NCBI GenBank assembly: GCA_025738555.1
Contig: JAOVFP010000012.1
Coordinates: 1,302,001-1,366,000 of the forward strand
Reading direction: 5' to 3'
Source of the DNA: Cyathus striatus
Taxonomy: Eukaryota > Basidiomycota > Agaricomycetes > Agaricales > Nidulariaceae
Length of the DNA: 64,000 bases
Shown here in pieces: positions 2,046 through 53,000 of this stretch. Below the pieces are notes generated by a model. That model saw only the letters and a program-made list of their open reading frames with translations. It had not been told where the DNA came from and did no database searches. The position numbers were made by a program, and so were the translations under genes. The first letter of the stretch is position 1. Each line of letters opens with the position of its first letter.

Positions 2046-2535
2046 GTTTTGTTGCGTTGGAATTTTGCTGAAGTCGCTGATGCATAAACATCGAAGTTAT
2101 ATATGTTCGCCACTTCCCGCTTTCGACTAAATCATGTCTGGGTTTTGGGGCAGCGATCTTTGTAACGAGCTTCATAAGCAGCTATTCCAATAAATGAATT
2201 ACAGATGGCTTACAGATCAAAATTGCTTAGGCGAGAAGCAACAGCGATGTGTGTACGGAAGGAGAATGATCTGCCAGTAATACCGTTACTAAGAATAGCA
2301 TCCCCCAATGATTATAAGCAAGCAGCGTCTGGTAACTGCTAGAAAATCAGTAGCTTACTAAAGGATAAGAGTAAAATTAGTAAAATATCTGCCAGTATTG
2401 ACCAAAATATCCTACACGACAGGCTCAGAGAGAACGAGAACAACAATGCCGGATTAAGGTGATGCAAAAGAGTCAAGTTGATGTTATGAAATGCCGCTTC
2501 TGAAATAAATATTAAGTTCCAATGCTGTTCGAGAT

Positions 2536-3474
2536 ACAGTCGAACTTGTAATAGTTTATACCTGTATGAAGCCATAATCAGCTAAGTATAACTCATAGAT
2601 TTTTTCGTCCACCGAATTGGTAGACGGGGAGAATGGCTTGTAACCCATACTATCGCCAATACTCTACAACCCATGGAATTTTCCACAGTTCGTAACCCAT
2701 ACTTACACCCTGAAAAGGAAATATCGTGCACCCGGTCCGCTCCTGCAGGGTCAAGCAAGCTCTTACAGCCTACAGGTTACTGTGACAGCAATATTTTAAA
2801 ACTTTTCTCCTTTTCTCATTTTTACTTTACTTGACTTTGGATAGGCATAGTGGTTTCCATAGCCCGATATTTATTCTTCACTGCATCTTAGTGTCCTATA
2901 AATTAAAGTGCACCACTCTTTTACCATTGACTACCTCAAATATGAAAGCACCTCTAGACATAAATTTGAAGGCTGGAATAGTGGAGAATAAGCGGCACAT
3001 TAAGAAGCACATGTGTCTTGGTCATATCGAAAGATCTCAGAACAGGACGAAGCCTGGCTTGACCACGATGGAGGCAACACGAAACGACATCGATGGACAA
3101 TCCAAAGACAATCAGTGCCAGAGAATACGTCGGACTATGAAACGGGTGTAGAATTATATTATCTATTCAAATGTCACAATGATATGCCTCCACATATGCT
3201 TTTAGATATGTTACTATTCCTATTATGTATTCTACTGACAATGTGCTACTGGTTGTTTTATGTATTTAAGTAGTTTACAATGTACCGTAAATACTTATCC
3301 ATTTGCCTCTGGCTTTCTCCCCTTGCGTGCTTTGAGGCCAAATGTAATGTCGTCGTCGTCGTCGATGCGTCGTTTATTTCAAAAACGGGAGCTATCACAT
3401 CTCATCTCGCAGCAGAAATCATTGGTGAAAAAACTCGAAGGCTGGTTCAAGCAGGACCTTGCGAGTTTTGCACA
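2536..3474. other. Intergenic stretch, no supported gene
   Basis: This sits between the duplicated downstream block of GST pair 1 and the truncated GST copy 3. The homology shared by the three GST units ends near 2535. A short CGT run (GTC repeats) lies near 3345-3365. I see no recognisable coding pattern; an open frame running into copy 3 from 3280 has no domain I know. Confidence 0.4.
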
Positions 3475-3840
3475 CTTATTATGTTCGCGTTCTATGAGAT
3501 GACTCAGATCACCAACCCTGTCAGCGGGGAGTACTTTGAACGTACTCGCTCTGGATTCTTCGGCAAGCCAGTGGAAGACATCGTTCCCACTGGTGAAGCC
3601 AAAGTCCAGATTTTGGAACTGATCAAGAATAATCTTGGAGAAATCAATGCGTTATATAAGGGGAAGTATATTATGGGGGATTATCTGACTTTGCCGGATT
3701 TCGTATTCGCTGCTACGCTCTTGGGAGTGAAGATTTTGCTTGGAGAAGAGAGTGATGTTTGGATGGAGGTTGCGAAGTTTCAGGGAGGGGAATGGGCTGG
3801 GCTTTTGGATGATTTGAAGGCTTACCAGGGTGTTGTTTAA
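3475..3840 (+). pseudogene. GST copy 3, 5'-truncated (C-terminal domain only)
   Basis: Homology to copies 1 and 5 begins abruptly at CTTATTATGTTCGCG and runs to the stop codon. It covers only the helical C-terminal domain (M-F-A-F-Y-E-M-T... to Y-Q-G-V-V). The N-terminal thioredoxin-like half, the first exon and the TATA box are gone; unrelated sequence abuts the break. The frame is open from 3280, so a chimeric transcript is possible, but glutathione binding would be lost. I call it a relic. Confidence 0.8.
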
Positions 3841-4111
3841 GCCCGACGGTCGACCGGTGGTGATCGCCTCTTAAACTGATTTGGAATGCTTGTTGCCACG
3901 ATTGATTAGGGCTTTATGGACTCCATTTGAATGGTATTAGTCGTTATACCTCTTTACCTGAGCGTCTTAGTCTTTCTTTAAGTTTAGGTTGGCAGCAACA
4001 CCAATATTGGCACATGAAGTAGAATCTGAATAAGATAAGAGTCGTAGAATACGACTTTGCCGCTCATATCAGTCTCAGGAACGCTTCTCTACTAGTATTT
4101 AAGCCGGTACT

Positions 4112-4908
4112 TTAGAACACAACTTGATACGGTTTCATGTCTTCCAACAACCTAGCCCAGCGACCTCCCTGCCAACTTGAGACCTCCTTCCACTCGTGAC
4201 TATCCTCCCCGTACACAAGCTTTACACCTAATAAGAAAGCCGAAATAGCAAAGTCCGTAAATGTCGGACTATCCCCCATAATGAATTTCTTTCCTCCGTT
4301 CTTGTCGTACGATTTCTTTATGTCCTCCATCCCAGTTTTGACTGTCTCCAAAGCTTGAACGCGCGCCTCGCCTTTCGGAGCAATTTCTTGAAGCGATTTA
4401 TTACTATTAAAGTAGGCAGGCCTGGTTTCGTTAAAGTACACGGAGCTAACCGGGTTCAGGATGGTGGCAATCTGAAGATAGAAGATAACCATATATGGTC
4501 CCCATTTAGAAATGTATGAGTCGAGGAAGGCTTGCATCAATGCCTCTGTTCCAGCTGGAACGACGACAGGAGTGTCCGGATATGTCTTGTCGAGATACTG
4601 AGCGATTGGGACTGAATCTGCTAGGTAAACTCCTGTGGTATCGTCGTAAATAGCGGGGAGGGTGTATAATGGGCTGCCATCTGGTTTTTTCCTGTCGGCG
4701 CAATTCCGTGCTTCTTGGAGAACGCCTCGATGTCTGGATACTCAACCCACTCTGTTTTGTGGGGAAGTTGCTTGTAGTTAAGTATTAATCTAAGAAAACG
4801 ATCAGCAATAATTTCAATATCGTTTGCGGAAGCGTACATTATCCTCCAATTAACCGGAGACCAGACAATACCAGGTAGCTTGGAGGGGACATCGAAAAAA
4901 GTAATCAT
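4112..4908 (-). pseudogene. GST copy 4, frameshifted
   Basis: Same subfamily as copies 2 and 6. The run of T at 4685-4690 has six bases where copies 2 and 6 have seven. This shifts the frame after the G-I-A-P-T-G-K segment, and the downstream frame is otherwise open to a normal stop. The 48-bp intron is at 4790-4837. The codon across the intron changes from Arg to Ile. Either a real pseudogene or a homopolymer sequencing error. Confidence 0.75.
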
Positions 4909-5299
4909 GTTTTGTTGCGTTGGAATTTTGCTGAAGTCGCTGGTGCATCAACATCGAAGCTATATATGTTCGCCACTTCCCGCTTTCGACTAAATCATGT
5001 CTGGGGTTTGGGGCAGCGATCTTTGTAACGAGCTTCATAAGCAGCTATTCCAACAAATGAATTACAGATGGCTTACAGATCAAAATTGCTTAGGCGAGAA
5101 GCAACAGCGATGTGTGTACGGAAGGAGAATGATCTGCCAGTAATACCGTTACTAAAAATAGCATCCTCCAGTGATTATAAGCAAGCACTGAGCAGCCTCT
5201 GGTAACTAGCGCGTAGAAATTCAGTAGCCGACTAAAGGATGAGAGCGAAATTAGTAAAATATCTGCCAGTATTAACTTGATTCCTACATGTCATACTCA

Positions 5300-6339
5300 G
5301 AGAGAACGAGGACAAAGATGCTGTTTACAGTTAGGTGGTGTAACTAGAACGTCGATGTTATGAAATGCCGCTTCGGAAATGCTCAAAGTATGCCGCCCAG
5401 TATCCAATGTTCCTGCCCCAGTATTTGTAGCTTGAAGTAGACAGTGACAGCTACCCCAGCTGGGGTCAGTGCTGCAATTCTCCCGCCCCAGGTTTGAATT
5501 TGAAGTTATTTTGGGGCTCCAGCGCAATTACAAATTCAACTTGTTCACGTGAGAGCATGAATTTCTCACCATCAGATTCAACGCAAATTCAACGTCCAAA
5601 CCTCCGCTTTACCTCTGTCGGAGCTGCTTCTTCTAAGCCCCTATAGAGTCAAGTTCCAACTTCAAGTTTCGGCCTGTTCTTGTTTTATTCTCTTGCTTCG
5701 AATATTATTTTCTGTCAGCAATAAATCTTGTGACGCACAACTGATCTGCCAGTAATACCGCTACTAAAAATAGCATCCTCCAATGATTATTAGCAAGCAG
5801 TGTCTGGTAACTGCTAGAAAGTCAGTAGCTTACTAAAGGATGAGAGTAAAATTAGTAAAATATCTACAAGTATTGACCAAAATATCCTACACGACAGGCT
5901 CAGAGAGAACGAGAACAACAATGCTGGATTAAGGTGATGCAAAAGAATCAAGTTGATGTTATGAAATGCCGCTTCTGAAATAAATATTAAGTTCCAACGC
6001 TGTTCGAGGTATTTGGTTACGAAGACGTTGAAGTCGAAGACACTGTTGGTTCCTATGGAACGTAGTGCTATTGGACTTAAAAATTAGGCATTTGAATTTT
6101 GGACTTTGGTTCTGATGTTCTGTCGTTTCGTTTTTGGTTTCGTTGTTCTTTTTTCTATATACATATATGGGATTAGATCTGGACTGTTGATATGATAATT
6201 AGTTGCCACTACGTATATGCCTGATATATTTATTGAAGCTGCTGAAGATTACTTGGCATTTAATTGACTTCTGATCCTTAAGGCAGGTTTGGTGTAAGTA
6301 TCGTAAAGCAGGAATTCGAAACGGTACATACGCGACACG
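5300..6339. repeat. Duplicated flanking block of the GST units
   Basis: The block downstream of the minus-strand GSTs recurs three times (about 2046-2535, 4909-5300 and 10245-10770). A further partial copy lies at about 5740-6005, starting near GATCTGCCAGTAATACCG. A second shared stretch with the Q-rich motif CCCAGCTGG is at about 5400-5700 and 10780-11130. No gene is recognised. The pattern shows tandem segmental duplication of whole two-gene units. Confidence 0.65.
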
Positions 6340-7418
6340 TAGTCCGGAGGCCGTCCCGTCTATCGCCGATCTCACGCTGGCGTCACATGACTGGCGTGGG
6401 GGTATCTCGTCGATAGACGGTCCGGTAAAATTGGTCAAGTTTGAAACAGGCGTCCCTTACGTGCGTGCGACTTCCCTCGCTCGCTCCTTCAATATGCCTG
6501 TTCATCCCTTGTTCCCTCCGTTCTCTATACAATGTGACCTCCTCTAACATCGAAGAATACCCTCAAGTGTCTATTTACACCAAGAAGATCAATGAAAGCA
6601 CCTCATCCGGATTCCGACTCCCTAACGAGTCCACCACGCTGCACTGCAGTACAAGCAGTCTCACAGAAGCTGTCCTCCCCTTTACTCCCCCTTCCCCTAC
6701 GCAAACCCGAGCCCATTTCAAGAAATACTAGCTATGGAAAGATTAGACGACCCCCATGGGCCATATCAAGACAATTTCAAATTGTATACTGCATGCAGTA
6801 TAGTAGAGATCTTTTATTATGTTGTACAATCCATGATACAGGACTTAGATAGGCCGTCCAAACACTGTCTTAAATAAATATAAAATATTCTTCCTAACCA
6901 AACTTCAAAGATTACCAAGCGGTACGAGATTTGGTCCCAGTTTGCTTGGTATGTAATTCAGCATCACTAGAAGTAAGCAGTGCAAATTGTCAGTCCCTAG
7001 CTGACTTAAACTCAACTACTGAACGCACCTGAGGTTTTCCAAAGACTCTTCCTCAACTAATAGACCCTTTTCACGGTTCCCTAAACCCTCCATCTGCTAG
7101 AAATTCTAGGATTGATTGATATTTCTGCGGTTATGCTGATCTCGTTACGCTGATTGATGTGCTTTCGTTGGTCTTCTTGGTGTTTGAGGGCATTCTTCGA
7201 AGTTTGGAAAAGCCAACGGGCATAGAGAACGGAGGGGACAAGGGGAGGAGCGAGTATATTGAGGGAGCGAGCGAGGGAAGTGGGCGCGTCGCACGCGCGT
7301 AAGGGACGCCTGTTTCAAACTTGACCAATTTTACCGGACCGTCTATCGACGAGATACCCCCACGCCAGTCATGTGACGCTAGCGTGATCTCGTTTTAGAC
7401 GGTTCGGCTTCCGGACTA
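6340..7418. mobile_element. Non-autonomous long-TIR element, MULE-like, 9-bp TSD
   Basis: The ends TAGTCCGGAGGCCG and CGGCTTCCGGACTA are inverted. The arms stay similar for roughly 250-290 bases (6340-6610 against 7130-7418), including TCACGCTGGCGTCACATGAC and GACGCCTGTTTCAAACTTGA. The flanks 6331-6339 and 7419-7427 are both CGCGACACG. Long TIRs with a 9-bp target duplication are the hallmark of Mutator-like elements. The 1079-bp body has no transposase, so it would need one in trans. Confidence 0.8.
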
Positions 7419-7427
7419 CGCGACACG

Positions 7428-8312
7428 CGGTCGTATCACGTCATCTCGTAATGTGTACACGTGACCACTATCTACTGCCATCGAAATTTTAAAACCAACT
7501 TTAGTAACGGCCTGGGTTCTCAACTTGATTTCTTACCAAACTCTTTCGACATCGTGCCCACGGAAACACAAGTACCCATAGATATGCCCATCAAATACCC
7601 ATGTGAGAATCTTCGATTGGTAACCGTTGTAATCGAACCGTTTCTCCTCGGCAGGTTCTCAACAATTCCGATTTACAAACTCTTTCCGAGCCATCATGCC
7701 CTCACCTTATGGCATCTTTTTACAACCTATGTAGATGCTCTCTGAAGTCCTGTATATGATCACTTTAAACCTGAAATGGTGCAAAGGTACTTCAAGTTCA
7801 GAGACTGCGTACCAAGAATCCAGTTGGAATAGTCAAAACAGACTCGAGTCAAACTGCAGATGCACAACTTCCTCTCAATACCTCTACATTGGAAACATTT
7901 CAATCATTCAATTCAACGCTTGGCTCGAGGCTCTTCAAACCGCGGACCGTGGAAGGAAACGAACTGCCGCCGGTCATTGTAACATGGTCTGACTCTATGG
8001 GTTTGGTGACTTTACGTTTCTCAGTGATCATGAGCGAAACAAGAGAGCGTTGTAAATACTGGCCACTGTGAAATAAAAACAAAGGAAGGTCTTGGTCTCT
8101 CGTGCTGACGTTCTTCTAGGAGCTGCGAAGAGCAGCACACACCACTTCAAGCTGTGGACCGCGGTTGGCTATTGCTGCGTACGCAATAGATGAGCACGTC
8201 GGGACGACCAGCGTAGGTGATGGTTGTCTACAGTGACTGCGTTCTGTAAGCTCACTACGTGACGTGGTTGTAAAGTTGCAATACTATTTGCAAGACATGC
8301 TAGCCTGGGAGG
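7428..8312. other. Intergenic stretch upstream of GST copy 5
   Basis: Open frames of 60-95 codons occur here but none has a domain or splice pattern I recognise. From about 8180 the sequence matches the first 130 bases of the window, so this is the start of the third GST unit. Confidence 0.4.
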
Positions 8313-8396
8313 TATATAATTACTACGGTGACGAGCAATGAAAGACATTGACAATAAGAAATATCTTCTTAGTACCACTCGAATACACACTAAACA

Positions 8397-9175
8397 ATGC
8401 TTACCTTCTACGACATTCCGTCCAAAGTACCAGGCCAAGCTTGGTCTCCGACTAACTGGAAAGTCAGGTATTAACTTTGCTTTAATTCCTCACAACTTAC
8501 TGAGTGCACTTTTAGATTTGTTCCTAACTACAAAAGCTCGAATACAAGGCCGAATGGATCGAATACCCAGATATCGAGGCATTCTGCAAGGAACACGGTA
8601 TCCCGCCCACCGCTAGCAAGCCTGACGGTACCGGATACTATACCCTCCCAGCCATCCACGATGTCAAGACGGGTATTTACATGGCCGATACGTTCCCCAT
8701 CGTTCAGTACCTCGACAAGACGTACCCTGACGCTCCAGCTATCGTCCCAGCCGGCACCGAAGCTATCGTAAAAGAAATCATCGACACCAACTTCCCCAAG
8801 CTTCATCCTCTTATTATGTTCGCGTTCTACGAGATGACTCAGATCACCAACCCTGTCAGCGGGGATTACTTTGAACGTACTCGCTCTGGATTCTTTGGCA
8901 AGCCAATGAAAGACATCATTCCCACTGGTGGAGCCAAAGTCCAGATTTTGGAACCGATCAAGAATAATCTTGGAGAAATCAATGCGTTGTATAAAGGGAA
9001 GTACATTATGGGCGATAATCCGACTTTGCCTGATTTCGTATTCGCCGCTACGTTGTTGGGAGTAAAAATTTTGCTTGGAGAAGGGAGTAATGTTTGGATG
9101 GAGGTTGCGAAGTTTCAGGGAGGGAAATGGGCTGGGCTTTTGGATGATTTGAAGGCTTATCAGGGTGTTGTTTAA
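8397..9175 (+). pseudogene. GST copy 5, frameshifted
   Basis: Near-identical to copy 1, with the same exon layout (8397-8467, intron 8468-8515, then 8516 onward) and TATA box. The A run at 8532-8535 has four bases where copy 1 has five, so the frame is lost about nine codons after the splice junction. Downstream the original frame is open to the normal stop. Either a young pseudogene or a base-call error. Confidence 0.75.
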
Positions 9176-9446
9176 GTCCGACGGTCAACCGGTGGTGATC
9201 GTTTCGTAAACTGATTTGGAATGCTTGTTGCCATGATTGATTAGGGCTTTATGGACTCCATTTGAATGGTATTAGTCGTTATACCTCTTTACCTGAGCGT
9301 CTTAGTCTTTCTTTAAGTTTAGGTTGGCAGCAACACCAATATTGGCACATGAAGTAGAATCTGAATAAGATAAGAGTCGTAGAATACGACTTTGCCGCTC
9401 ATATCAGTCTCAGGAACGCTCCTCTACTAGTATTTAAGCCGGTACT

Positions 9447-10244
9447 TTAGAACACAGCTTGATACGGTCCCATGTCTTCTAACAACTTAGCCCAGCGACC
9501 TCCCTGCCAACTTGAAACCTCCTTCCACTCGTGACTATCCTCCTCATACACAAGCTTTACACCTAATAAGAAAGCCGAAATAGCAAAGTCCGTAAATGTC
9601 GGACTATCCCCCATAATGAATTTCTTCCCTCCGTTCTTGTCGTACGATTTCTTTATGTCCTCCATCCCAGTTTTGACCGCCTCCAAAGCTTGAACGCGCG
9701 CCTCGCCTTTCGGAGCAATTTCTTGAAGCGATTTTTTACTATTAAAGTAGGCAGGCCTGGTTTCGTTGAAGTACACGGAACTAACCGGGTTCATGATGGT
9801 GGTAATTTGAAGAACGGAGATAGGCATATACGGCCCCCATTTAGAAAAGTATAAATCAAGGAAGGCTTGCATCAATGCCTCTGTTCCAGCTGGAACGACG
9901 ACAGGAGTTTCCGGATATGTCTTGTCGAGATACTGAGCGATTGGGACTGAGTCTGCTAGGTAAACTCCCGTAGTGTCGTCGTAAATGGCGGGGAGGGTAT
10001 ATAATGGGCTGCCATCTGGTTTTTTTCCTGTCGGCGCAATTCCGTGCTTCTTGGAGAACGCTTCAATATCTGGATATTCAACCCACTCTGTTTTGTGGGG
10101 AAGTTGCTTGTAGTTGAGTAGTAATCTACAAAAATGATCAGCAATGATTTCAATATCGTTTGCGGAAGCGTACCGTATCCTCCAATTAACCGGAGACCAA
10201 GCAATACCAGGTAGTTTGGAGGGGACATCGAAAAAAGTGATCAT
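9447..10244 (-). CDS. Glutathione S-transferase, copy 6 (intact)
   Basis: Same subfamily as copy 2: 249 residues after removing the 48-bp in-frame intron at 10126-10173 (265 if retained). It has the ITFFDVPSK start, LPAIYDD, Q-Y-L-D-K-T-Y-P and F-I-M-G-D-S-P-T. It is the intact partner of frameshifted copy 5, tail to tail, 270 bases apart. TATATAA lies 52 bases upstream on its strand. Cytosolic glutathione conjugation or thiol transfer is inferred from the family. Confidence 0.85.
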   Translation of the reverse strand: MITFFDVPSKLPGIAWSPVNWRIRYASANDIEIIADHFCRLLLNYKQLPHKTEWVEYPDIEAFSKKHGIAPTGKKPDGSPLYTLPAIYDDTTGVYLADSVPIAQYLDKTYPETPVVVPAGTEALMQAFLDLYFSKWGPYMPISVLQITTIMNPVSSVYFNETRPAYFNSKKSLQEIAPKGEARVQALEAVKTGMEDIKKSYDKNGGKKFIMGDSPTFTDFAISAFLLGVKLVYEEDSHEWKEVSSWQGGRWAKLLEDMGPYQAVF

Positions 10245-11354
10245 GTTTTGTTGCGTTGGAATTTTGCTGAAGTCGCTGATGCATCAGCATCGAAGTTATA
10301 TATGTTTACAATTGGCTCCGCCTGTCAATTAATATCAAGTCTCGGGTTTTGGGGTAGCGATCTTTCAGTACTGAGCTTCATAGGCTGAGATAAGCAGCCT
10401 GTAGTAGGGTCATACAATCCGACAAATGGCTGACAGATGGCTGACAGATCAAAAATTCTTAGGCGAGAGGCAACGGCGAGGTAGTGGCGATGCGTGTACG
10501 GAAGGAAAATAACCCTCCAGTAGTACTCTCAGGCTCGGGTCCATTACTTAAAATAGCATCCTCCAATGATTATAAGCAAGCAGAGCAGCCTCTGGCAATT
10601 AACGCGTAGAAAGTCAGTAGCTGACTAAGGGATGAGGGCGAAATTAGTAAAGTAGCTGTCAGTATTAACTTGATTCCTACGTGTCATGCTCAGAGAGAAC
10701 GAGGACAAAGATGCCGTTTACAGTAAGGTGATGCAACTAGGACGTCCATGTTATGATGTGCCGCTTCGGAAATGTTTAAAGTATGCCGCCCAGTATCCAA
10801 TGTTCCTGCCCCAGTATTTTGTAGCTTGAAGTAGACAGTGTGACAGCTACCCCAGCTGGCGCCAGTGTTGCAATTCTCCCGCCCCAGGTTTGAATTTGAA
10901 GTTATTTTGGGGTGGGCTGCAATGCAATTACAAATTCAACTTGTTCACATGGGAGCATGAATTTTTCACCATCAGATTCAACGCAAATTCAACGTCCAAA
11001 CCTCCGGTTTACCTCTGTCGGAGCTGCTTCTAAGTCCCTATAGAGTCAAGTTCCAACTTCGGGTATCGGCCTGTTCTTGTTTTATTCTCTTGCTTCGAAC
11101 ATTATTCTCTGTCAGCGGCCAATCTTGTGACGCACAACTTTCAAATGGCTAAGTATCTCTCTTTTCACTGCTCACCGCCAGATCACCTCCGAAGTATAGG
11201 AGAAAGATAAAATATGTGACACGCAACAGATTACATAGCATCTAGTCAATAAGCAATTGTTATTACCGGACATATTTCACACTGTAAGTTCAATTGTGTT
11301 CACCAACTACACAGTAACTTCCCTGTCATTTAGTGAGAGTCCCAGATAATTTTC

Positions 11355-12686
11355 TCAATCCAACAGCCCTACGAGTCGTCTTGCAAAAGGAATGAGCAAA
11401 TTTCTCGACTTTCTCAGCAACCCCGTCGTAACCCAGCTTCCGAACGACCAGCCACCAAGAAGACCGATATACGATGAGCCGCCATTCTATTCCGTGCCAT
11501 TAATATTTTGTTCACCTTAAGTTAAATTTCATGGTTGGAACGCACCTTCCCGTTGGTAAGCACAAGAATCTCATAACTCCCTCTATACTCTCTGAACCCT
11601 TTATCTATCCCTTCAAGAAAACACGAGATGTTGTTTGCGACGATAGCAGCTTGGTCGTGCACCTTTCCCGCCTGTTTCTGCTCAGGATAGTTGATGATAT
11701 CTCCTAGTGCGAATATGTCCCGGTGGTCTGAGAGCTGGAGGTGCGGAGTGACGCGTACGTGACCTGAAGATGTGAGTGTTTTGGGATCGAGAAGGTGGAG
11801 GATTCGTGTGTTAGGCTGGGAGCCGTTGCATTGAATCTATTTAGCTGTTGACTACCGATGCATAGGAAGGAAGAACGACAGACATACGACAAGGTCAGCA
11901 GTCACCTCCTTTCCACTTCTGCATGTAACACTTGTCTTGGTAAAGCTTTCAACTACGTCTCCTAGCATGAACCCCACCCCTCGGGCACGAAGATCACTTT
12001 CAACCATATCCCGAAACTTGGCTGGGTATGTGCTATTTAACATTTTATGGCCGGCATGGATGATTGTTATTTCAGTTTCCTACAGTCTACTAGTTTGTCA
12101 ACGTATGATACATGGGTATTAATACATACTGGATATGCATCCTTTACCTCCCCAGCGTACTCTGCTTTCTTTAGTCAACATCCTCACCAAAACTGGATTA
12201 CGCACCAATAGCAACAGCACCCCCGCCAACCAAAACTATCCTTCTCGCTGTTTTTACTGCTTCCCTCCGTTCTCGAATCTGTGTCTCCATCTCCTCGAGT
12301 GTATTTCCGAACGAAAACGGACCCTGCCGTATAGATCCCATAGCAAGCACTAAAACATCAAAACATATTTCTTCCCCAGTCTTCAATACTACCTTCCCTC
12401 CCACTTCCATATCTTCATTCTTTCGAATAGAACAAACTTCACCCACAACAACCTTTCCCATTCCCTCTTTGAACATCTTATCATAAGGTAAATACGCTCT
12501 CCCCTCAATCTCCGAGTCGTACTTTGTCACGATGCGTACCATAGCGGGGTACCATATCGAGAACGGCCGCGTGTTGATTAGGACCACAGTATACTTTTCG
12601 GGGTTAAGCTGAGAGGAGAGGCGTTTAGAGAGTGAGATCCCGGCGTGTCCGCCTCCAAGAATTAGGATTGTTTTCCTTTGGGCCAT
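11355..12686 (-). CDS. AIF-like FAD/NAD(P)H oxidoreductase
   Basis: Five exons read on the minus strand: 12206-12686, 12130-12161 (32 nt), 11888-12079, 11546-11836 and 11355-11486. They join in frame to 375 residues, the usual length for AIFM2/FSP1-type proteins. Seen: an N-terminal Rossmann loop (ILILGGGHAGISL, residues about 7-19), a central second dinucleotide loop (IVLVGGGAVAIEYAGE), the C-terminal FAD-binding ALGDIINYPEQKQ, then Y-I-G-L-L-G-G-W-S-F-G-S-W. This order is that of pyridine-nucleotide disulfide oxidoreductases of the AIF-like group. Inferred role: a flavoprotein passing electrons from NAD(P)H to a quinone or similar acceptor at a membrane. The GAE codons fall exactly on the first splice junction, which supports the model. 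No paralog in the window. Confidence 0.85.
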
Positions 12687-12807
12687 GTTGGGGGAGGGGG
12701 GTGGGTGCGAATGTGGATGATATACTATCGGGGGCCTCGGTTTGTAGTATCTAGTTGTTATATGTATGCATAGTAGAGATCTCGGCTACTCATCCGTGGC
12801 GCTTATT

Positions 12808-13190
12808 AGGGGAAATCAAACTTGCCCTCTTGGCAAAACGAAATGATTGATGGTCGAAACAAAACAACTTCCCACGGAAACAAAAGAGAGGACACGACGT
12901 CGTTTCGAGGCGATCTTGTTACGAGCGTTCTTAGTCGATATTGTGTCGGAGCTTGAAGTTGAAGTAAGCGACTGCTTGGCTCACCCGGACTCGGAGGTGC
13001 ACGCGTGAACTCCTTGACTCACTCGGAATCAACCCCAATCCCAGATAGAACTCCGCCAGAGCCATCAGTCATTTGTTTCGATACGATGTGGGGGTGTCAA
13101 ACCCCGGTCGGAACAAAACGAAGTTCCCACGCAACAAAAAAACTGCTTGGCACAACAAAACAGCCAAAACAGCCAAGTTTGATTTCCCCT
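12808..13190. mobile_element. 383-bp MITE with perfect 17-bp TIR and 3-bp TSD
   Basis: The ends AGGGGAAATCAAACTTG and CAAGTTTGATTTCCCCT are exact inverted copies. The flanks are ATT (12805-12807 and 13191-13193). The tandem-duplicated promoter region of the next MYND gene keeps the uninterrupted site at 15781-15800 (GGCGCTTATTGAAAGTAGTG), which proves insertion. A 3-bp TSD fits PIF/Harbinger- or CACTA-derived MITEs. No coding capacity. Confidence 0.85.
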
Positions 13191-13476
13191 ATTGAAAGTA
13201 CTTAGTATAAACTTTACATAAGATGAAGTCCATCGACATCGAGTTGGCTCTCTTTGGCTTGGATTCAAACTTATAGTCGCCGGTGTCCCGTTTACGTGGC
13301 CAATGATTAATGATTAACGAGTAATGATTCGTTGGCACTTGAAATTTTTTAAGTTGACAGTGCCAGCTGCTACATCGCCACTGGAAGTGGTCTGAGGTTC
13401 TTCCTTCCACTCTACCTCGTTCGTACATATGGTGCTACTCTTCTGCAAAAGTTTACTGACCTATAATGATAGAAAA

Positions 13477-33037: not shown

Positions 33038-33110
33038 GACAACACATCAATTGCCAACGACAACACATCAATTGACAACGACAGCGCATCAATTGACACT
33101 GACAACACAT
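33038..33110. repeat. 21-bp tandem repeat before the Ulp1 gene
   Basis: About three and a half units of CGACAACACATCAATTGACAA with small changes, ending 30 bases before the ATG at 33142. The minus frame reads as a repeated Ser-Ile-Asp-Val-Leu motif; I take this as non-coding. Confidence 0.7.
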
Positions 33111-33141
33111 TTCTCTCGAGCATACCACTCAATTCACTATC

Positions 33142-34299
33142 ATGGTGAATCAACACCATGCATTCTTTATTCCAAGTACTGCACGCTCTTTTCTACTACC
33201 CAACCCAGCGACACCTGTACTTGATTTCCTCGACTTTCAGCTACCAAGTGTTCGCACCAACAGCACACTTCACGAAACCATGGCATTAAACTCTCTCAGC
33301 TTTGAGCCTGCTAGCATTGAAGATTTAGAAAGCATCCGCCGCATACCTATTCCTACGTCTAGCCATGGTGTGCTAAACCACATGAAATCGGAGTATGCGC
33401 ACATGGAAGGAAAACCTTTATCAGTCAGGGTCGCGGGAGAAGGGAAAGACAATGTACGCTTGCCTATGTGGATTATTACGTTCTGGATAGAGGTTCTTGA
33501 CATACACTTTACATATCGGGTACCATGGAACAAAGCTGTAAAGTCCTTGGAGGTTCGGAGATATGGAGGAAAGATGAATCGGTTGGTTGATGAAGTTCAA
33601 GATGAATTACAATGCTTACCGTGGAGTGGAGGTATCAAAGGCTTCGCATACCCCGAGCCACTTGTCAGTCTCGCTACATTTGCCAGTAGAGACTGGCTGT
33701 CAGGCGCACAGGAGGATCAAATGGTTGAACTTCTTGAACGAGAAGTTCGACACCACCTCCCTTCGGATCACATTGAGCTACCGAGTAGCTCCTTTAAACT
33801 CCTGCTGCTGAAGGCATATAATGATCGCATGTCATACAGTACAGGAAGAGTGCACCAGTACATGCGAAATCTTGGGCAATGTCTTGCAACAGGAAAGCTG
33901 GGGTCGTTGGGATTCATTGCAAATGTGAATGGAAACCACTGGGTTTCAGTGGTCGTTGACTTTACGCTGAACAAACTCTTCTATGGTGATTCTATGAATG
34001 GGGACTTCGATACCGAGCTTTTATCAGCACTATTATGGTGGACAAAGCAGCATACCAGTTCGAAGTTTCTGAAAGGGGAGCTAAGGATAACGACGCAGCA
34101 GCAAGATGATCAACATTCGTGTGGGCTTCTTGCCACGAATGCTCTTGCGCACCACTATCTCCCAGAGCTGTTCCCACTGATAGACTCAAATAAAACGGAT
34201 GCAGCTCGACTTCGAATGCTAATAAAAGTGATAAAGCGGCATTTTGACGTTGTAAGTAATACAGATTTCAACTACAAGTATCAGAAAGCTTACCATTAA
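33142..34299 (+). CDS. Ulp1-type (C48) cysteine protease, transposon-linked
   Basis: Single exon, 385 residues. The catalytic triad of the Ulp1/SENP fold is present and in order: His-266 (NGNHWVSVVVDF), Asp-283 (FYGDSM), a Gln in Q-Q-D-D-Q, and Cys-327 (HSCGLLATNAL). The N-terminal 150 residues are not recognised. In Agaricomycetes free-standing Ulp1 domains are often carried by DNA transposons (established for several superfamilies), and a transposase-like gene starts 52 bases downstream on the same strand. The protease could remove SUMO-like modifiers from the transposase or host factors (inference). The frame is intact, in contrast to its neighbour. Confidence 0.8.
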   Translation: MVNQHHAFFIPSTARSFLLPNPATPVLDFLDFQLPSVRTNSTLHETMALNSLSFEPASIEDLESIRRIPIPTSSHGVLNHMKSEYAHMEGKPLSVRVAGEGKDNVRLPMWIITFWIEVLDIHFTYRVPWNKAVKSLEVRRYGGKMNRLVDEVQDELQCLPWSGGIKGFAYPEPLVSLATFASRDWLSGAQEDQMVELLEREVRHHLPSDHIELPSSSFKLLLLKAYNDRMSYSTGRVHQYMRNLGQCLATGKLGSLGFIANVNGNHWVSVVVDFTLNKLFYGDSMNGDFDTELLSALLWWTKQHTSSKFLKGELRITTQQQDDQHSCGLLATNALAHHYLPELFPLIDSNKTDAARLRMLIKVIKRHFDVVSNTDFNYKYQKAYH

Positions 34300-35159
34300 A
34301 TAGACGTTTGAAACTGAAGCAATTAACTACCCCTTCTCATTCACACCTGACATGGTTACGCAGCCAGATGAAGGAGCATCAGAGACATCAGCATGGACTG
34401 ATGGAACGGCATCAGAAGATGACACCGAATCTATTGTAACAATGTCCAGTGCCGCCATCCCAGCAAGTGAATACTCAGCTTGGTCGTCAAGTTCATCATT
34501 TGCATTTGCAAAAACCCATCCTCCCACACCGCCTCCAGATGAAAAAGACTCCAGTGACGATTATTTACCGGAAGATGTACCAGAAAGAGTGTCATTGGTG
34601 AAACGCTCAGTGCCAGGTAGTGACATTGAATCTAGCGATGTTGAACCCAAGTCCAAATGTCTACGCATCGTGTCAGCAATCTCCAGTGCTATCAAATGAA
34701 GCATTGATGCAAAACCTAAAGGGCTTATGAAGTACTTTACAAAGTGTACGCCAGAGGAGAATCACGCACAGGTTGAGCGCGAGAAGATTAAGATTAAGCA
34801 AGATTGTGATGAACAGGCTGAGATTGAGAAAGCAAGACAGGACAAACGTGTTGAGCGAAGGCGTATGCTGGAGCGTGAGCGACAGCGAAAGCATCGGGAG
34901 AAGACTCGTGCTGTTAAGGTGGAACAGGGTACGCACTCACCTGGTGGGTCTAGAAAGGTATGAAATTGATTGACATCTGTAAACTCGTGTGAAAGCTCAC
35001 CTAATTATAGCATGATCTCGAATTCAATGACTGGAAGGATGGAAATACAGAGGGGTGTCAGCCAAATTTATCATTTAACAGCAGTGTTATATGATATGAG
35101 ATATCATATAAGGACTATGACTTATGAGTGAGGCATATTATAAGTAGTATACAGGTTAC

Positions 35160-35760
35160 TCATAAAAACTCATTACTTGTTTCCTATTGTTATTGTAATA
35201 CTAGTGTGTGTACTCATAAGTATTCATTACTTTATGCTTCCTATTATTATTGTAATACTAATATGTGTACTCATAAGTACTCATTACTTTATGTTTTCTA
35301 TTGTTATTTTAATACTAGCATGTGTACTCATAAGTACTCATTACTTTATGATTCCTATTATTATTGTAATACTAGTGTGTGTACTCATAAGTACTCATTA
35401 CTTTATGATTCCTATTATTATTGTAATACTAATATGTGTACTCATAAGTATTCATTACTTTATGTTTTCTATTGTTATTTTAATACTAGCATGTGTACTC
35501 ATAAGTACTCATTACTTTATGATTCCTATTATTATTGTAATACTAGTATGTGTACTCATAAGTACTCATTACTTTATAATTCCTATTGTTATTGTAATAC
35601 TAGTATATGTACTCATAAGTACTCATTACTTTATGTTTTCTATTATTACTGTAATGCTTCCTATTATTATTTTAATAGTATTATGTGTACTCATAAGTGC
35701 TCATTACTTCATGCTTCCTATTATTATTCTAATAGAATTATGTACGCTTTTCAAGTGTGT
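35160..35760. repeat. 57-bp satellite, left arm
   Basis: About ten units of 57 bases, each containing GTACTCATAAGTACTCATTA, CTTTATG, CCTATTATTATTGTAATACT. Because 57 is a multiple of three, long frames stay open and translate as a 19-residue repeat (ISTHYFMIPIIIVILVCVL-like or Cys/Tyr-rich in the next frame). These are not genes. Confidence 0.9.
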
Positions 35761-36370
35761 CACATCTGTCACAATTTTCCCATGCGTTACGTTAGTCACA
35801 CATATTCCCGCGCCTCATGTTTATCCCGCGCATCGCATTTGTCACATACTTCACGCGCATCACGTTCGTCACACATATTCCCGCGCTTCATATTTGTCAC
35901 ATACTTCATGTGCGTCACGTTCGTCACATATATTCCCACGCATCACATTTGTCACATTCTTCCCGCCCGTCACGTTTGTCACGCATATTCCCGCACATCA
36001 CATTCATCACACATTTCCCATGTGTCACATTTGTCACAATTTTCACGTGCGTCACGTCTGTCACGATTCTCCCACACTACATATATATCACACCTGTCAC
36101 GCTTTCATGCGCGTCACGCGTCACGTTTGTCACGCTCTTTATAAGCGTTACGCTTTTATGAATGCCACACATCTCACATCTATTTGTCACGCTTTTCATG
36201 CTCATCACAGTGCATTTGTCATGCTTTGTATGCACGTCATGCATCACATAAGTCACATCTGTTTCTTATGATTTGCACATGCATCATAGTCATCATGTCT
36301 TTGAGGCTTTCATCTTGCTTTCACACACATCATAAGTGTTACTTATGTCACATCTTTAAGATTTATAACA
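35760..36370. repeat. GTCAC-rich irregular repeat, left arm
   Basis: Degenerate units of roughly 24-48 bases built on TTTGTCACA, CGCGCATCACG and CATATTCCCGCGC. The inverted counterpart is at about 37540-38180 in the right arm. It is subterminal in the element and could bind a transposase (inference). Confidence 0.75.
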
Positions 36371-37440
36371 CATTTCAAGCACATTGTGCTTGCATGTGTA
36401 TCATGATTGTGACATGTTGATGGGGTTCCAACAGGTCTATAATGAAAAATGTTCTGTACATTTCATATCCAAGGAATCAGAGCACTCAGTGATGCCACAT
36501 TTAACCCATATCTCACTACTTAGCTGGGTAATTCAGCCTCTTGCATTGACAAGTCAGTCATTGATTCAGACCCTGTATGACAATACTGCACATGACTATA
36601 GAAAAATGATAGTAAGTTTTTTTTAGGCAAGAAAGGAGAAAAGACAAAGTAGTCCTTCTGAAAAGAGAACAAGAAGAAAAGAAGGTGATGATGTAGTTGA
36701 CACTAAACTAAAGAATAGAAAAGCAAGTAATGATCACTGAGCAAGAAAGTGATGAGAAGTACAGGAGGAGGTTTCATATGTATGAATGGATACTAATACT
36801 AAAAGAACTATATAACATAATCAGAGATGTGAAACACATGACAGTGTAGAAGTGTCACATAATCATATAGAGTAAGCATATGACTTAAAAATGTGTGTTG
36901 GAGATATAAGAATAACCAATGGTTAATGCAAGAATCATGATCATTTAATGGCTGAGACATATGAGTTTGATGTGATGTGGAATCACATATACCAACCATT
37001 CTTTCAGATTTGTTATCCATATGTAATTCTTTCAGTATATGTCCTTTTCTGTTCAGTTGTTAAATATTTCCAAAATATTCATTTCTATCATAATGATCTC
37101 ATCATCTCTCATATCCAGACTAACCATTATAGTTTTTACTTTGTCATTTAATTACATCTCTAATTCTGATTATTAAACATCATATCATCCCATTTCCAAA
37201 TTTCTCATGCTCTGTCAGTGTGGGTAGTAAGCCTTCAACTACATATACACTCTACATTTTTCATTCTAGTTTCTTATTACTACCACACTTCTATAACTTT
37301 CTAATTGTTATTTTCTGTGTTACAATCTCCAATTCTACAAGTACATATCATTTCATCTGCATATATAATTCACTCTACTATTAAATACTTACTCCACTCT
37401 CATGACAACTTGAATAGTGGTAGAGACAGAAAAATCTGAT
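36371..37440. other. Core of the 4.2-kb element
   Basis: AT-rich spacer between the two arms. Short frames only (largest about 80 codons), no transposase motif and no splice-consistent model. The spliced-looking AAG-rich stretch 36625-36740 has no recognisable product. Confidence 0.5.
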
Positions 37441-37699
37441 GGGATTGGAAAGCATTGTATTTGTGAAAAAGTTGCAATGCACTTGAAAAATGTGACATGC
37501 ATGAAAAAGACATATGTAACATATGTGAAAAGTGTGACATGCATGCAGATTGTCACGCTGTGACGCGCCTCAAAGACGTGACACGTGTGACGAGTGTGAA
37601 AAGCGTGACAAATAGATGTGAGATGTGTGACATGCATAAAAGCGTAACGCTCATAAAAAACGTGACAAACGTGACGCGTGACGCGCATGCAAAGCATAA

Positions 37700-37834
37700 C
37701 AAACGCGCTAAAGCGTGACAAACGCGCTAAAGCGTGACAAACGCGCTAAAGCGTGACAAACGCGCTAAAGCGTGACAAACGCGCTAAAGCGTGACAAACG
37801 CGCTAAAGCGTGACAAACGCGCTAAAGCGTGACA
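37700..37834. repeat. 19-bp tandem repeat, right arm only
   Basis: Seven copies of CGCGCTAAAGCGTGACAAA. The unit holds the near-palindrome CGCTAAAGCG. The left arm has no such array at the mirror position (about 36090-36160), so it expanded after the two arms formed. Confidence 0.9.
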
Positions 37835-38169
37835 GGTGTGATATATATGTAGTGTGGGAGAATCGTGACAGACGTGACGCACGTGAAAATTGTGACAAAT
37901 GTGACACGTGGGAAACGTGTGATGAATGTGATGCGCGGGAATATGCGTGACAAACGTGACGGGCGGGAAGAATGTGACAAATGTGATGCGTGGGAATATA
38001 TGTGACGAACGTGACGCACGTGAAGTATGTGACAAATATGAAGCGCGGGAATATGTGTGACGAACGTGATGCGCGTGAAGTATGTGACAAATGCGATGCG
38101 CGGGAAAAACATGAGGCGCGGGAATATGTGTGACTAACGTAACGCATGGGAAAATTGTGACAGATGTGA

Positions 38170-39110
38170 CACACTTGAAAAGCGTACATAATTCTATTAG
38201 AATAATAATAGGAAGCATGAAGTAATGAGCACTTATGAGTACACATAATACTATTAAAATAATAATAGGAAGCATTACAGTAATAATAGAAAACATAAAG
38301 TAATGAGTACTTATGAGTACATATACTAGTATTACAATAACAATAGGAATTATAAAGTAATGAGTACTTATGAGTACACATACTAGTATTACAATAATAA
38401 TAGGAATCATAAAGTAATGAGTACTTATGAGTACACATGCTAGTATTAAAATAACAATAGAAAACATAAAGTAATGAGTACTTATGAGTACACATGCTAG
38501 TATTAAAATAACAATAGAAAACATAAAGTAATGAATACTTATGAGTACACATATTAGTATTACAATAATAATAGGAATCATAAAGTAATGAGTACTTATG
38601 AGTACACACACTAGTATTACAATAATAATAGGAATCATAAAGTAATGAGTACTTATGAGTACACATGCTAGTATTAAAATAGCAATAGAAAACATAAAGT
38701 AATGAATACTTATGAGTACACATATTAGTATTACAATAATAATAGGAATCATAAAGTAATGAGTACTTATGAGTACACACACTAGTATTACAATAATAAT
38801 AGGAATCATAAAGTAATGAGTACTTATGAGTACACATGCTAGTATTAAAATAACAATAGAAAACATATAGTAATGAGTACTTATGAGTACACATATTAGT
38901 ATTACAATAATAATAGAAACCATAAAGTAATGAGTACTTATGAGTACACACACTAGTATTACAATAATAATAGAAATCATAAATTAATGAGTACTTATGA
39001 GTACACATAGTAGCATTACAATAATAATAGGAAGCATAAAGTAATGAGTACTTATGAGTAGACATAATACAATTGTAATAATAGTAGAAGCATAAAGTAA
39101 TGAGTACTTA
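38170..39110. repeat. 57-bp satellite, right arm
   Basis: About sixteen units, the reverse complement of the left-arm satellite. Higher-order order of unit variants (TTCCTATT, TTTTCTATTG and the CTAGTGTG/CTAATATG junctions) repeats in blocks, consistent with expansion by unequal exchange. The open frames on the minus strand (37784-39065) come from the 3n period. Confidence 0.9.
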
Positions 39111-39615
39111 TGAATAGCCTGTATATACATATAGTATATGCCTCACTCATAAAACTCAGACCTTATATGATATCCCATATCATATAAGGCCTATGATAAA
39201 TGAGAAATTTGGCTGACACTTATGAAATACAAAACGCACTAAAATTCCTGAATATTCACGACCAATGCGGGAAGCTAATGAGCGGATACGACAGAAGAAC
39301 AAACAATATGGTCCCAAGCGCACCAAGGAGTACATGCATGCCAAATATACGAATTGGCATACTCCTCTTCTATGGGTACATATTGATCGTGTAGCTCATT
39401 CTCCTGCAATTGGCTATAAAATGAGTGCAACAGCAATTGTTAATGAGCTAAAGAAACAAAATAGGGAACTCTTTAATGGTCTCAATCGCAACACTGTGGA
39501 ACGTTGGATTGACCAAAGTGGTCACCGCCCATGCTGGTCAAAGAACGCTCTGCTTCAGGCTGAAAACGGTAACTTTCAAGGATATCTTAATGGGGGCGAC
39601 GTGGAGCACTGGTGA

Positions 39616-40564
39616 GAACTTAGCTACATATTAATTAAATCATTGTTACTTACGTTGAACACAGGCTGCCTATCCTGACACCTCAGACAGGACCAAATCG
39701 GATCAGGGTAAATATGGTACAACCCGATGTAGTTAACAATTAGAATATGTACAAAAATATGTCATTTGACCGATTCATGTTCATATTTAGAAAATGATTA
39801 TGAATCGGGCGCGTATCAAATCCATGAGCATTATTGAGAATATAACAATAAGACATATGTAGAATATCATACAAAAATCGGTTACCATACCGATGTATGA
39901 ACAAATCCTGAATCGGGGCACACATTTGCCCCTAGATCCTATCCAAATACTGATTCTAAGTGTGTCTCGTGTCCCTATCTTATCACATATTCTGAATTTG
40001 CCCTTGAAACAGATCCCGAATTGGATCTTTTATCATATCCTCACTCCGATTTAGAATGTAAACAAAAATATGTCGCTCGCCCCGATTCATGTACAGATTG
40101 TAAATATGACAATTAGAAATATTGATTACCCACTCACAGGGCCACTCACGGGCCACTCACATCCGCTCACCAGACCACTCATGACCACTCACTACCACTC
40201 ACTACCCACTCCATTCCCACCTGGTTCCCCGCTCCATTCCTACCCTACTTGTCAAAGGCTCTAATAAAATCGTGTGATGGCGTATATTGTGGGGGTAATC
40301 GCATGCAGTAAACGACGTAGTGTACAGATTTAAATACAAAATATATAGTACATAAAAGGGATAGCATAGTGGCATAAAATAAAATGGAGAATATACGTGA
40401 AACATATAGTGGCGCGAGCAGGGATCATTGAGACATTTGAATATAGATGTCTCTGGTATTCCAACACTACTCCTTGCTAATTATCCCACTCGAGATCCTG
40501 CAAAACGAACAGCCCTAGCTTTCTTCAAGCCAGCGCCAACTTCCTTTGTAGTTGTAGTTGACTT
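39616..40564. other. Intergenic; CACTCA-rich simple repeat
   Basis: 40120-40250 is a degenerate CCACTCA/ACCACTCACT repeat. The rest is AT-rich with no gene or element ends that I can support. The missing catalytic half of the transposase would be expected here and is not found. Confidence 0.45.
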
Positions 40565-50082: not shown

Positions 50083-53000
50083 TTAAGTACGAAAGTAACA
50101 TACCGTATCGGGCAGATCTTCGACAGGACCGGCCTCAACGGCAGCTTTTTGTCCCGTACTAAGGGATTTGTACCAAGTTGTATCATAGAAATTGATTGGA
50201 AGTCTCTGAACACATATTTGCTCTGGTGACGGTTCGTTTGTCTCAGATGGAGGAGACTTAGATGAAGCTCCATTGTACTCCCTGACACAATGAACATTTC
50301 CGCCTCCCTTTCTTAGTCCAGTGCCGTATGCCTCCACGTCCCGGAACAACAAAGAAATACTATCATTAAGCCAGGCTTTCTTCTTTCGACAAACAACTTT
50401 GTTTTGGGTACTTGTACCTTCAACTTCGGTTTCGTCTGAGCTCATCCCCATAGCTCCCAATGCATTGTGGACGCATTCGACACCCCTCCAAAACTGATGG
50501 TTTTCAGCGTTATTGGTCAGGCGAGCCGAAACGACTTTCCCTCTGCATTTCCACGTCTGAAAGTGCATTCAGTATGTGAAAGTAATATGAAGTTAAACTA
50601 TACACATACCCCTTCCCGACGAGTAAACCTACGATTCCTTGCTTTCTCTTCAGCTTCAGCGATAGCTAACTCAGACTTCTTTATGGGATCGATACTTCGC
50701 TGTAACCGCCTGTACTTTAGAGCACTCCATTGTAGTCTTTCACTGATCTTCTTCGCCAGCTTCGCCATTGTCTCTTCTCCCTTAGGAACACAGAAATTGA
50801 CTTGACCATTCAGCACAATCTGGTAATCCAAGGCAAGGAGCCGAATCATCTCCCTGTTCCACTCAGAAGTGAAGGGCACCATCCAATTCAATTTTGGCGA
50901 TGCTGCATTTAGAGTCAGCTTGCAGTCCCTGAACTGTTCGAGTTCTTCTGCAGATGGACAGACAAATTCCGAAGCGTGAGTGTACCACAGCCTTTTTGTC
51001 TCGTTCAGGTAGGTGCGGAGATGTTGCTACGAAAAGGTTAACCTATGTGTCGAAGAATAGAGACATGAACATATGTCAAACATCCAATCATCTTCTTCCT
51101 TTTTCTTACACTTTCTTGAGGAAGGGACTAGGATACTGTTATCGCCTTGGACATTGTTCTCGGTTTCATCCCCGCTATCCATGGGGTCATCCACATCCTC
51201 TGAAGGAGAGGATGCTCGACCTTTGCCTTTGCCTTTGCCTTTGCCTTGGGGACTTTCAGTGGAGCGTATTTCTGAAATAATCTCTCGGATGGATACGTCG
51301 ACCGAAGTCATCACACATCGCGTAACTATTGTTAACTAACAACATTAGTACGAGGTGCACTACTATATAAGAAGACCTCACCTGTTTGGGAGAAAGATAG
51401 ACATTGAGAGCAGGACCAGCCGGCTGCTGTGGGGCGGGAGGTGGGCCGTTCTGCTGGTGGATGTTGGGAGCAGGACCAGCCAGCTGCTGTGGGGAGGGAG
51501 GTGAGCCATCCTGCTGGTGGACGTTGGGAGCAGGACCAGCTGGCTGTTGAGGGGCGGGAAGTGGGCCATCCTGTTGGTGGATGTTGGGAGCAGGGCCAGC
51601 TGACTGCTGAGAGTGAGAGGTAGTAGGTGGGCTGTCCTGCTGAGCGTGATTGGGAGCAGGGTTGGCCGGCTGCTGAAGGGCGGGAGGTAGGCCATCCTGC
51701 TGAATGTGGTTGAGGGCAGGATCAGCTGGTTGCTGAGGTGGACCGTCCAGCTGGTGGAGAGGAGCACCAGCTAGCTGCGATGGGATGGGAGGCTGACTGT
51801 TCTGATGATGAGCATCGACCTCCATCGTTTCCTGCTGATGGGGGATAGGAGTCGGATTGGCCTGTTGCTGTACGATGGAAGGCTGGTTAATCTGCAGGTG
51901 ATCTACCGCCATGCTGGAAGAGGAATCTTGTTGAGGCGTAACTAGCTCATTGGGCATGATGGGCTGTTGAGAGCTGGACGACAAATGGTTGACATTATCG
52001 ACCTGCATTGAGATAATACAGTCCGGTGGAGGACTCTCACAAAAGGCTCCTGGGATGGAAGGAGGTGAAGGTGGAGCAATAGTGCTACCATGCGCTGCCG
52101 CTCCAGGTAGCAGCGATGGATGTGCCGCCATTGGTGGAATAGGCGGGGGTAGTGCTGGGGGTGGACGAACAATGCTCCCCAGAGAGGACTGGAAGAGAGC
52201 CGATGTTCCAGGCAGCAGAGGTGGATGCGCCACCACTGGTGGAATAGGTGGGGGTAATGCTGGGGGTGGATGAACAATGCTCCCCAGAGAGGACTGGGGG
52301 CGAGCCGACACGACAGGCAGCAGAGACAGATGTGCCACCACTGCTGGAATAGGCGGGGGTAATGCTGGGGGTGGACGAACAATGCTCCCCAGAGACGATT
52401 GGGGGCGAGCTGACGTTCCAGGCAGCAGAGACAGATGCAAGACCAATGCCGTTGACGTAGGCGCAGAGGGCATCGAGTGTTGAGGGGGTGGACCAGATGC
52501 AGCGAGTACGGGGCCCTACAGTTATATTGAATAAGGGCATGCTGAAAAGATTAAATGGTACATACCAGCACACCCGCTTCAGATGGCTGGGCAGGATTGC
52601 CGCCAAAAAATGCAGCTGAAGTTCCTGGAAGCAGAGATGGCGGAAGCAATGCACGCGTCGGCATGCTCGATGTTATCAAGCTAGGTGCAGGGGATAGTGA
52701 TTGGTGTGAAGGCGGTCCAGATGCACCAAGTCCGGGGCCCTATAATTGTATTCAGTGATCAATATCAAGACAGTAAGGACGGTATACATGCCTGTGGATT
52801 ACGGAGCGCGCCTTGCGCAACCTCCGCCTGTCCTGGTGCTAGTTCATTGGGCGGCGATGGTTCTTGTTCCACTCAAAAGCAAGTATAATGCTGGCTTGTA
52901 ATATTAGTCTAAAAGGCGGGAGTAAGAGTTCGTTTAATTTATAGCGTATGACTTAGATGTACCTGCTCGACGACCGATTGTGTCCTGCCATGTAGCCTTG

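Follow-up and report, generated by a model that had tools for sequence, protein, structure and literature searches.

A foldback-type element with satellite-filled arms in Cyathus striatus and its likely KDZ partners

KDZ (Kyakuja-Dileera-Zisupton), CxC5/CxC6 and DUF6589 domains are typical of mushroom-forming fungi. Within the KDZ group of transposons, Kyakuja makes 7-bp target duplications, and Zisupton and the described Dileera family make 8-bp ones (Kojima 2025, PMC12730594). Foldback-type elements are an architecture and not a line of common descent: long inverted repeats built of tandem repeats surround a non-coding middle. Galileo, from Drosophila, carries transposase-binding sites within such long repeats (PMC3688188), and the 220-bp repeats of Tetris, another Drosophila element, also form free satellite arrays (PMC4079207). 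Statements on these published systems, here and below, refer to the excerpts of the cited papers that served for the comparison. The window analyzed here is a stretch of 64,000 bp from Cyathus striatus (C12:1302001-1366000, from a 107-Mb assembly with 24 contigs), and it contains a genuine mobile element with satellite-filled arms at positions 35050 to 39224. The element is probably a non-autonomous foldback-type member of the KDZ group, moved by the transposase of giant elements in the same genome and equipped with arms that are candidate ladders of binding sites. It shares both of its ends and a 7-bp target duplication with giants holding KDZ sequence, and that sequence reads toward the GAGGGG end.

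The element (35050..39224, forward strand, 4,175 bp) is delimited by ends common to a family, by a 7-bp duplication and by an empty site. Copies of the duplication, AAATACA, lie on the forward strand at 35043..35049 and 39225..39231. A preliminary description had reported an 8-bp direct repeat, GAAATACA, and this is indeed present at 35042-35049 and 39224-39231, but the target duplication is 7 bp: the eighth matching base is coincidental, G35042 being host sequence and G39224 the last base of the element. The borders had also been held to be fixed twice, by the repeat and by a host reading frame. The frame does continue from 35049 to 39232, yet it gives no independent border information, because any cut within the direct repeat yields an identical join, and insertion in frame, put forward as notable, is no special property. 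The joined flanks align straight through two insert-free relatives, L090 (81% over 199 bp) and L091 (72% over 194 bp).

A G-type end, GAGGGGTGTCAGCC (35050..35063, forward), and a C-type end, CATAAGTGTCAGCC (39211..39224, reverse), bound the element, and the first 48 bp of each are identical in three giant KDZ elements. The 57-bp satellite arrays occupy 35157..35655 on the left (forward, 8.8 copies, with TACTCATAAGTACTCATTA in every unit) and 38274..39113 on the right (reverse, 14.8 copies). Inward of these lie zones with TCAC at 9-bp steps, whose borders are hand-drawn, at 35741..36440 (forward; 33 TCAC versus 1 GTGA) and 37501..38190 (reverse; 42 versus 1 in arm orientation). An array of 19-bp units (37691..37834, forward, 7.6 copies, 98% alike) occurs in the right arm only, and the core between the arms (36441..37500, forward) is non-coding and common to many family copies. 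The preliminary description of an inverted-repeat structure around a core without coding sequence, each arm stacking two arrays (57-bp array plus GTCAC-rich zone), thus holds in every part, and the long inverted repeats of tandem units around a non-coding middle are those of the Foldback type. The six reading frames scanned within the element gave no Pfam match up to an E value of 0.1, and Rfam gave none in the window at the gathering threshold. The element is non-autonomous, since no coding core, and with it no KDZ transposase, was found in it.

Polar ends and giant KDZ elements

Members of the family begin with one of two end types, GAGGGG or CATAAG, followed by the common sequence GTGTCAGCC; G-end variants include GAGGCG, GAGGTG and GAGTGG. 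The 15-mer GTGTCAGCCAAATTT occurs at 273 places in the genome with at most one mismatch (reversed control, 0), the 16-bp CATAAGTGTCAGCCAA, which represents one end type, has 329 exact matches in the 107-Mb genome (reversed-pattern control, 0), and GGGGTGTCAGCCAA has 131 (control, 1). Ends that face each other correctly and lie no more than 13.4 kb apart were paired, which gave 56 pairs with flanks among the matches listed; these are not all pairs. An exact 7-bp duplication flanks 27 of the 56, 6 of 7 bases agree in 7 more, and 22 are without one. Exact duplications of 4, 5, 6, 8, 9 or 10 bp were found in none of the 56, so that the family has the 7-bp duplication of Kyakuja and not the 8-bp duplication of Zisupton and Dileera; mismatched pairs predict 0.0 exact 7-bp matches. 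Furthermore, duplications matching at 6 or 7 of 7 bases occur in 34 of 48 unlike-ended pairs versus none of 8 like-ended pairs (4 GG and 4 CC; Fisher P = 0.0002), and exact duplications alone in 27 of 48 versus 0 of 8 (P = 0.005). We infer that transposition needs one end of each type, and some like-ended pairs are perhaps mispaired or products of recombination. Swapped duplications were considered as a trace of ectopic recombination and gave no signal (2 near-matches among 44 free flanks versus 1.9 expected). One insertion occurs on two contigs with the same flanks in opposite orientation (C6:335106-339023 and C19:124673-128431), which marks a duplicated segment.

Assembly of long inverted arrays is error-prone, and the exact number of repeat units depends on it. 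Nevertheless, an assembly artefact at 35-39 kb is barely credible against many loci with exact duplications of their own and an empty site, and these copies and the empty site show that the element arose neither by chance nor through faulty assembly. The arm architecture alone would also suit a Foldback/Rehavkus-type Mutator-like element (MULE), which shares it (PMC4079207). The majority of foldback elements apparently are MULEs. Assignment to that group is nonetheless highly improbable: the target duplication is 7 bp, and PF10551 has no match in the genome at an E value of 0.001, in a search whose control was positive in 3 of 14 genomes. A MULE partner was rejected on the same search.

The KDZ domain has 159 matches across the genome, and those listed form 91 loci once weaker pieces of the same locus are dropped. 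Their positions were compared with at least 143 G ends and at least 165 C ends drawn from four lists, in which CATAAGTGTCAGCCAA matches reach only contig 4. Nine of the 91 loci are situated 2.8 to 4.6 kb inward of a G end, and every one of them reads toward that end; in 500 random placements the mean number of such loci was 0.27 and the highest 2. A second G end lies 5.7 kb from one of these nine loci, which is inside that end too but reads away from it. As a control, the outer side of the ends holds, within 9 kb, one KDZ locus for G ends and five for C ends. Giant elements of 16 to 40 kb with such ends hold KDZ transposase sequence and are the likely autonomous partner of the window element.

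Both ends were read in seven giants, with an exact 7-bp duplication in five, a duplication of 6 of 7 bases in one and none in one. The window's two ends are matched at 48 of 48 bases in the giants at C7:4354239-4380580, C7:4982510-5022562 and C21:436056-452342, all with exact duplications. Exact duplications also flank C10:650773-668737 and C3:1980708-1998016, the 6-of-7 duplication belongs to C8:1201850-1218388, and C3:2024640-2041956 has none; these four match the window ends at 21 to 41 of 48 bases. In both C7 giants the 57-bp array of the window element adjoins the G end (8 and 6 matches, 1.3 and 1.1 kb inward). The 30-bp flanks of the giant ends at C3:1980708 and C3:2041956 (L092 and L095) are reverse-complementary, which points to an inverted duplication or a rearrangement.

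The transposase sequences follow the ends. When 80 KDZ matches were ranked by likeness to the first giant (C7:4354239-4380580), seven of the best 8 of 80 (87 to 100%, query included) lay inside listed ends, the exception being C3:4462587 (92%). KDZ identity to the first giant tracks end subfamily at 93 to 100%, 87% and 71%, with one first-subfamily locus at 84%. The KDZ locus inside C8:1201850 is 84% identical (a small second piece, 89%), those of the two C3 giants, which belong to another end subfamily, are 71% identical, and the remaining matches reach at most 77%. Ends and transposase have therefore diverged in parallel, which a chance nested insertion would not give. Further copies, duplications of their own and a transposase-bearing relative with the same ends, for which the preliminary description had proposed to search, were thus all found, the transposase gene having been read in part; that interpretation as a whole is partly supported.

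Several observations weigh against the giants as partners. Two KDZ loci stand instead inward of a C end, at distances of 2.5 and 3.2 kb, and read toward it, and 80 of the 91 are not near any end among the matches listed. An unbroken KDZ gene between the arms is putative, the giants having been read at their ends and, in the first of them, over 851 bp. In these 851 bp the KDZ model is matched by three frames, of which one scores below the cut-off, and either introns or damage may separate them. Insertions may be nested within the giants, and a nested insertion with KDZ-associated domains is present in one other family element. A rival explanation makes the KDZ genes nested passengers in a family that another transposase moves, for example one of the hAT or P type. 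In its favour, nested insertions are frequent among family members, the one with KDZ-associated domains has an 8-bp duplication, 7-bp duplications also occur in Galileo and fungal hAT7, and the 7-bp duplication alone would fit the P superfamily; the genome searches covered transposases other than hAT and P. Against it stand the constant distance and direction of KDZ sequence relative to the G end at nine loci and the parallel divergence of ends and transposase, and we regard passengers as unlikely.

If the giants are the partner, their KDZ transposase would pair one GAGGGG end with one CATAAG end, cut there and insert the element with a 7-bp stagger, and established DNA-transposon biology suggests that the window element would be mobilized by it in trans.

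Arm satellites and their turnover

The unit of the outer zone is 57 bp in the subfamily of the window element and 58-59, 65 or 69 bp in other end subfamilies. The four satellite units share TCATA-N5-TCATT, with 10 of 16 positions identical compared with at most 8 in 300 shuffled sets. Two of the four are related and do not make four independent cases, which detracts from the argument. Across 205 57-mers (61 array rows), divergence is 0.011 in the columns of the site versus 0.110 elsewhere, rank 3 of 57. Alignments not cut at the site gave 0.035 versus 0.116 for the 57-mer, 0.032 versus 0.131 for the 58-59-mer (rank 2 of 58) and 0.022 versus 0.060 for the 65-mer (about 8 units; rank 5 of 65). 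In the inner zone TCAC lies predominantly on one strand: nine of ten arms, from five elements, have 25 to 43 TCAC versus 1 to 3 GTGA, and the tenth has 12 versus 3. In every one of the ten arms, TCAC is spaced by 9, 18 and 27 more often than in any of 100 shuffles, although the margin in the tenth is narrow (4 versus 3). The shared TCATA-N5-TCATT and the 9-bp steps of TCAC suggest that the arrays are putative transposase-binding arrays.

The arms could then work as ladders of oriented putative sites, with TCATA-N5-TCATT about once per 57 to 69 bp outside and TCAC at 9-bp steps inside, and the satellite units would multiply and shrink while the putative site stays. A broader proposal, offered tentatively and as somewhat short of probable, is that this KDZ lineage recognizes satellite DNA: each jump would use polar ends, one GAGGGG and one CATAAG, the kilobase arms would be evolvable ladders of oriented half-sites whose satellites are replaced wholesale between subfamilies, and selection would keep TCATA-N5-TCATT, with its repeats one helical turn apart, and the 9-bp TCAC steps. 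If true, satellites would arise within a transposon as a side effect of selection on how many binding sites it carries. The arms may instead be neutral satellite, grown by unequal exchange and slippage, with the shared TCAT and TCAC words left over from common descent. Array length is highly variable and unequal between the arms of one element, two of the four units align well together, and the 59-bp unit has further conserved islands beyond the site. Conversely, in three units few stretches vary less than the site does (ranks 3 of 57, 2 of 58 and 5 of 65), TCAC is one-stranded in all ten arms examined, and Galileo provides a precedent for binding sites in arms (PMC3688188). Neutral growth is a possible, rather doubtful account of the arms.

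The preliminary description had proposed that satellites grow within the element, and unit counts support this. In 17 elements, an arm has 2 to 21 57-mers and 0 to 25 19-bp units, and the two arms of one element often differ; the window element has seven 19-bp units in its right arm and none in its left. Arms were typed by the 57-mer zone, as typing by the inner zone proved ambiguous. In eight elements the G arm carries satellite subtype II and the C arm of that element subtype I, one further element has subtype II in the G arm and a C arm that could not be assigned, and one GG element has subtype I in one arm and II in the other. Subtype I occurs in the G arm of the window element, C2_5914 and C5_1998. 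The subterminal part of the window G arm is nearest another G end, its 57-mer zone is nearest the C arm of another element, and its stretch 130-1400 is nearest its own C arm; judged by these nearest matches, the arm is a mosaic. General homogenization of the two arms of an element was rejected, as the opposite arm is rarely the best match (3 of 48 for the 57-mer zone, 7 of 47 for arm positions 130-1400 and 7 of 49 for the subterminal part). Among arms of other elements, the best match shares the end polarity in 39 of 48, 35 of 47 and 41 of 49 cases, respectively. In addition, the core takes one orientation with respect to the ends in 17 elements and the opposite one in 11 (two of the 11 being one duplicated locus), a sample set by availability from which like-ended and ambiguous elements were excluded. 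The two orientations could have come about if the segment between the arms inverted or if elements exchanged cores.

The host gene and other insertions

The interrupted coding sequence, aligned through the empty site with L090 and L091, runs on the forward strand from 35013 to 35049, its start placed by eye at a likely intron end, and from 39232 to 39615. The genome has nine matches to this piece, counting itself, and a protein search with it found no relative at an E value of 0.001. The preliminary description had called it a transposase gene, which from domain similarity it likely is, with domain evidence below threshold. L091 matches the Ulp1 protease at 24 bits (cut-off, 20.7) and DDE_1 weakly at 16.5 bits (cut-off, 22), and the DDE-region piece of L090 has no Pfam match. 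Upstream in the window, a forward Ulp1-protease-like frame at 33103..34299, which probably belongs to the host transposon, scores 15.5 against the same cut-off of 20.7. At 34697-34699, where L091 reads on, an in-frame stop interrupts this copy of the host gene, which may have decayed apart from the insertion. Tandem repeats rich in CCACTCAC lie to the right of the host gene at 40130-40211, and further arrays, of 60-bp and 105-bp units, at 51404-51738 and 52102-52431.

Two other family elements are themselves interrupted. The C6 element at 3908510 contains a nested element of 6,078 bp (L013 from 1660 into L014; joined 1660-7737) with inverted ends CAGGCTCC, alike at 89 of 90 bases, and a probable duplication TATATTTCC (8-9 bp). 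It carries a DEAD-type helicase, which we take to be RecQ-like, and a DUF6589 gene, and is possibly a separate transposon group. The core of the C6 element at 3543741 holds an insertion of about 7.4 kb (L011/L012; joined 5898-13277) with KDZ-associated CxC5/CxC6 domains and an 8-bp duplication, TCTCATAT, unlike the 7-bp family. Nested elements (CxC5/CxC6, helicase plus DUF6589, and Tc5-like) were rejected as partners, since they interrupt an arm or core.

Relation to described systems

The Kyakuja families of Laccaria bicolor resemble the present family in their KDZ transposase, here that of the likely partner, in the 7-bp duplication, exact in 27 of 56 pairs and five of seven giants, and in one end starting with CA (PMC12730594). 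Kyakuja as published has CA..TG ends and is described in the cited excerpts as being without inverted repeats (PMC12730594), which also speaks against a KDZ assignment. The present family has GA..TG ends, with one end GAGGGG, and inverted repeats of more than 1 kb, and because of these ends and long repeats it is not filed as Kyakuja. Tet_JBP had no match in this genome, in a search whose control was likewise silent, so nothing follows from it. KDZ1 to KDZ3 of Cryptococcus are likewise large KDZ elements with inverted repeats but differ in repeats of 139 to 241 bp and duplications of 8 bp (KDZ1) or 4 to 8 bp (KDZ2 and KDZ3) (PMC12810828).

Satellite-rich arms, which the preliminary description had considered unusual, were already known from Foldback-type elements (PMC4079207, PMC3573991). 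Galileo, of the P superfamily, shares foldback-like arms with internal tandem repeats, a 7-bp duplication, copies without a matching duplication and transposase-binding sites in its repeats, but has a P-type THAP transposase, and polar ends and two-zone arms are not described for it in the excerpts used (PMC3573991, PMC3688188). Tetris, a foldback element of Drosophila virilis, is alike in its outer flanking, tandem-repeat and inner domains and non-coding middle, and differs in duplications of 8 to 10 bp and in that the cited excerpts report no autonomous partner found (PMC4079207). Searches of open-licence papers listed none on satellite-armed or foldback KDZ elements, and the consulted parts of PMC9297572 and PMC3411680 held nothing comparable.

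Foldback-type arms were thus known before from Mutator-like and P-type elements, and here they occur with a third transposase group, KDZ, which supports a convergent origin of satellite arms. Unlike Tetris-like cases, which are without an autonomous partner, this family has a likely partner in the same genome, known by its identical ends. With hundreds of ends, several end subfamilies that differ in their satellites, and a candidate site conserved in every satellite that was compared, the family is natural material on which to test why such arms evolve.

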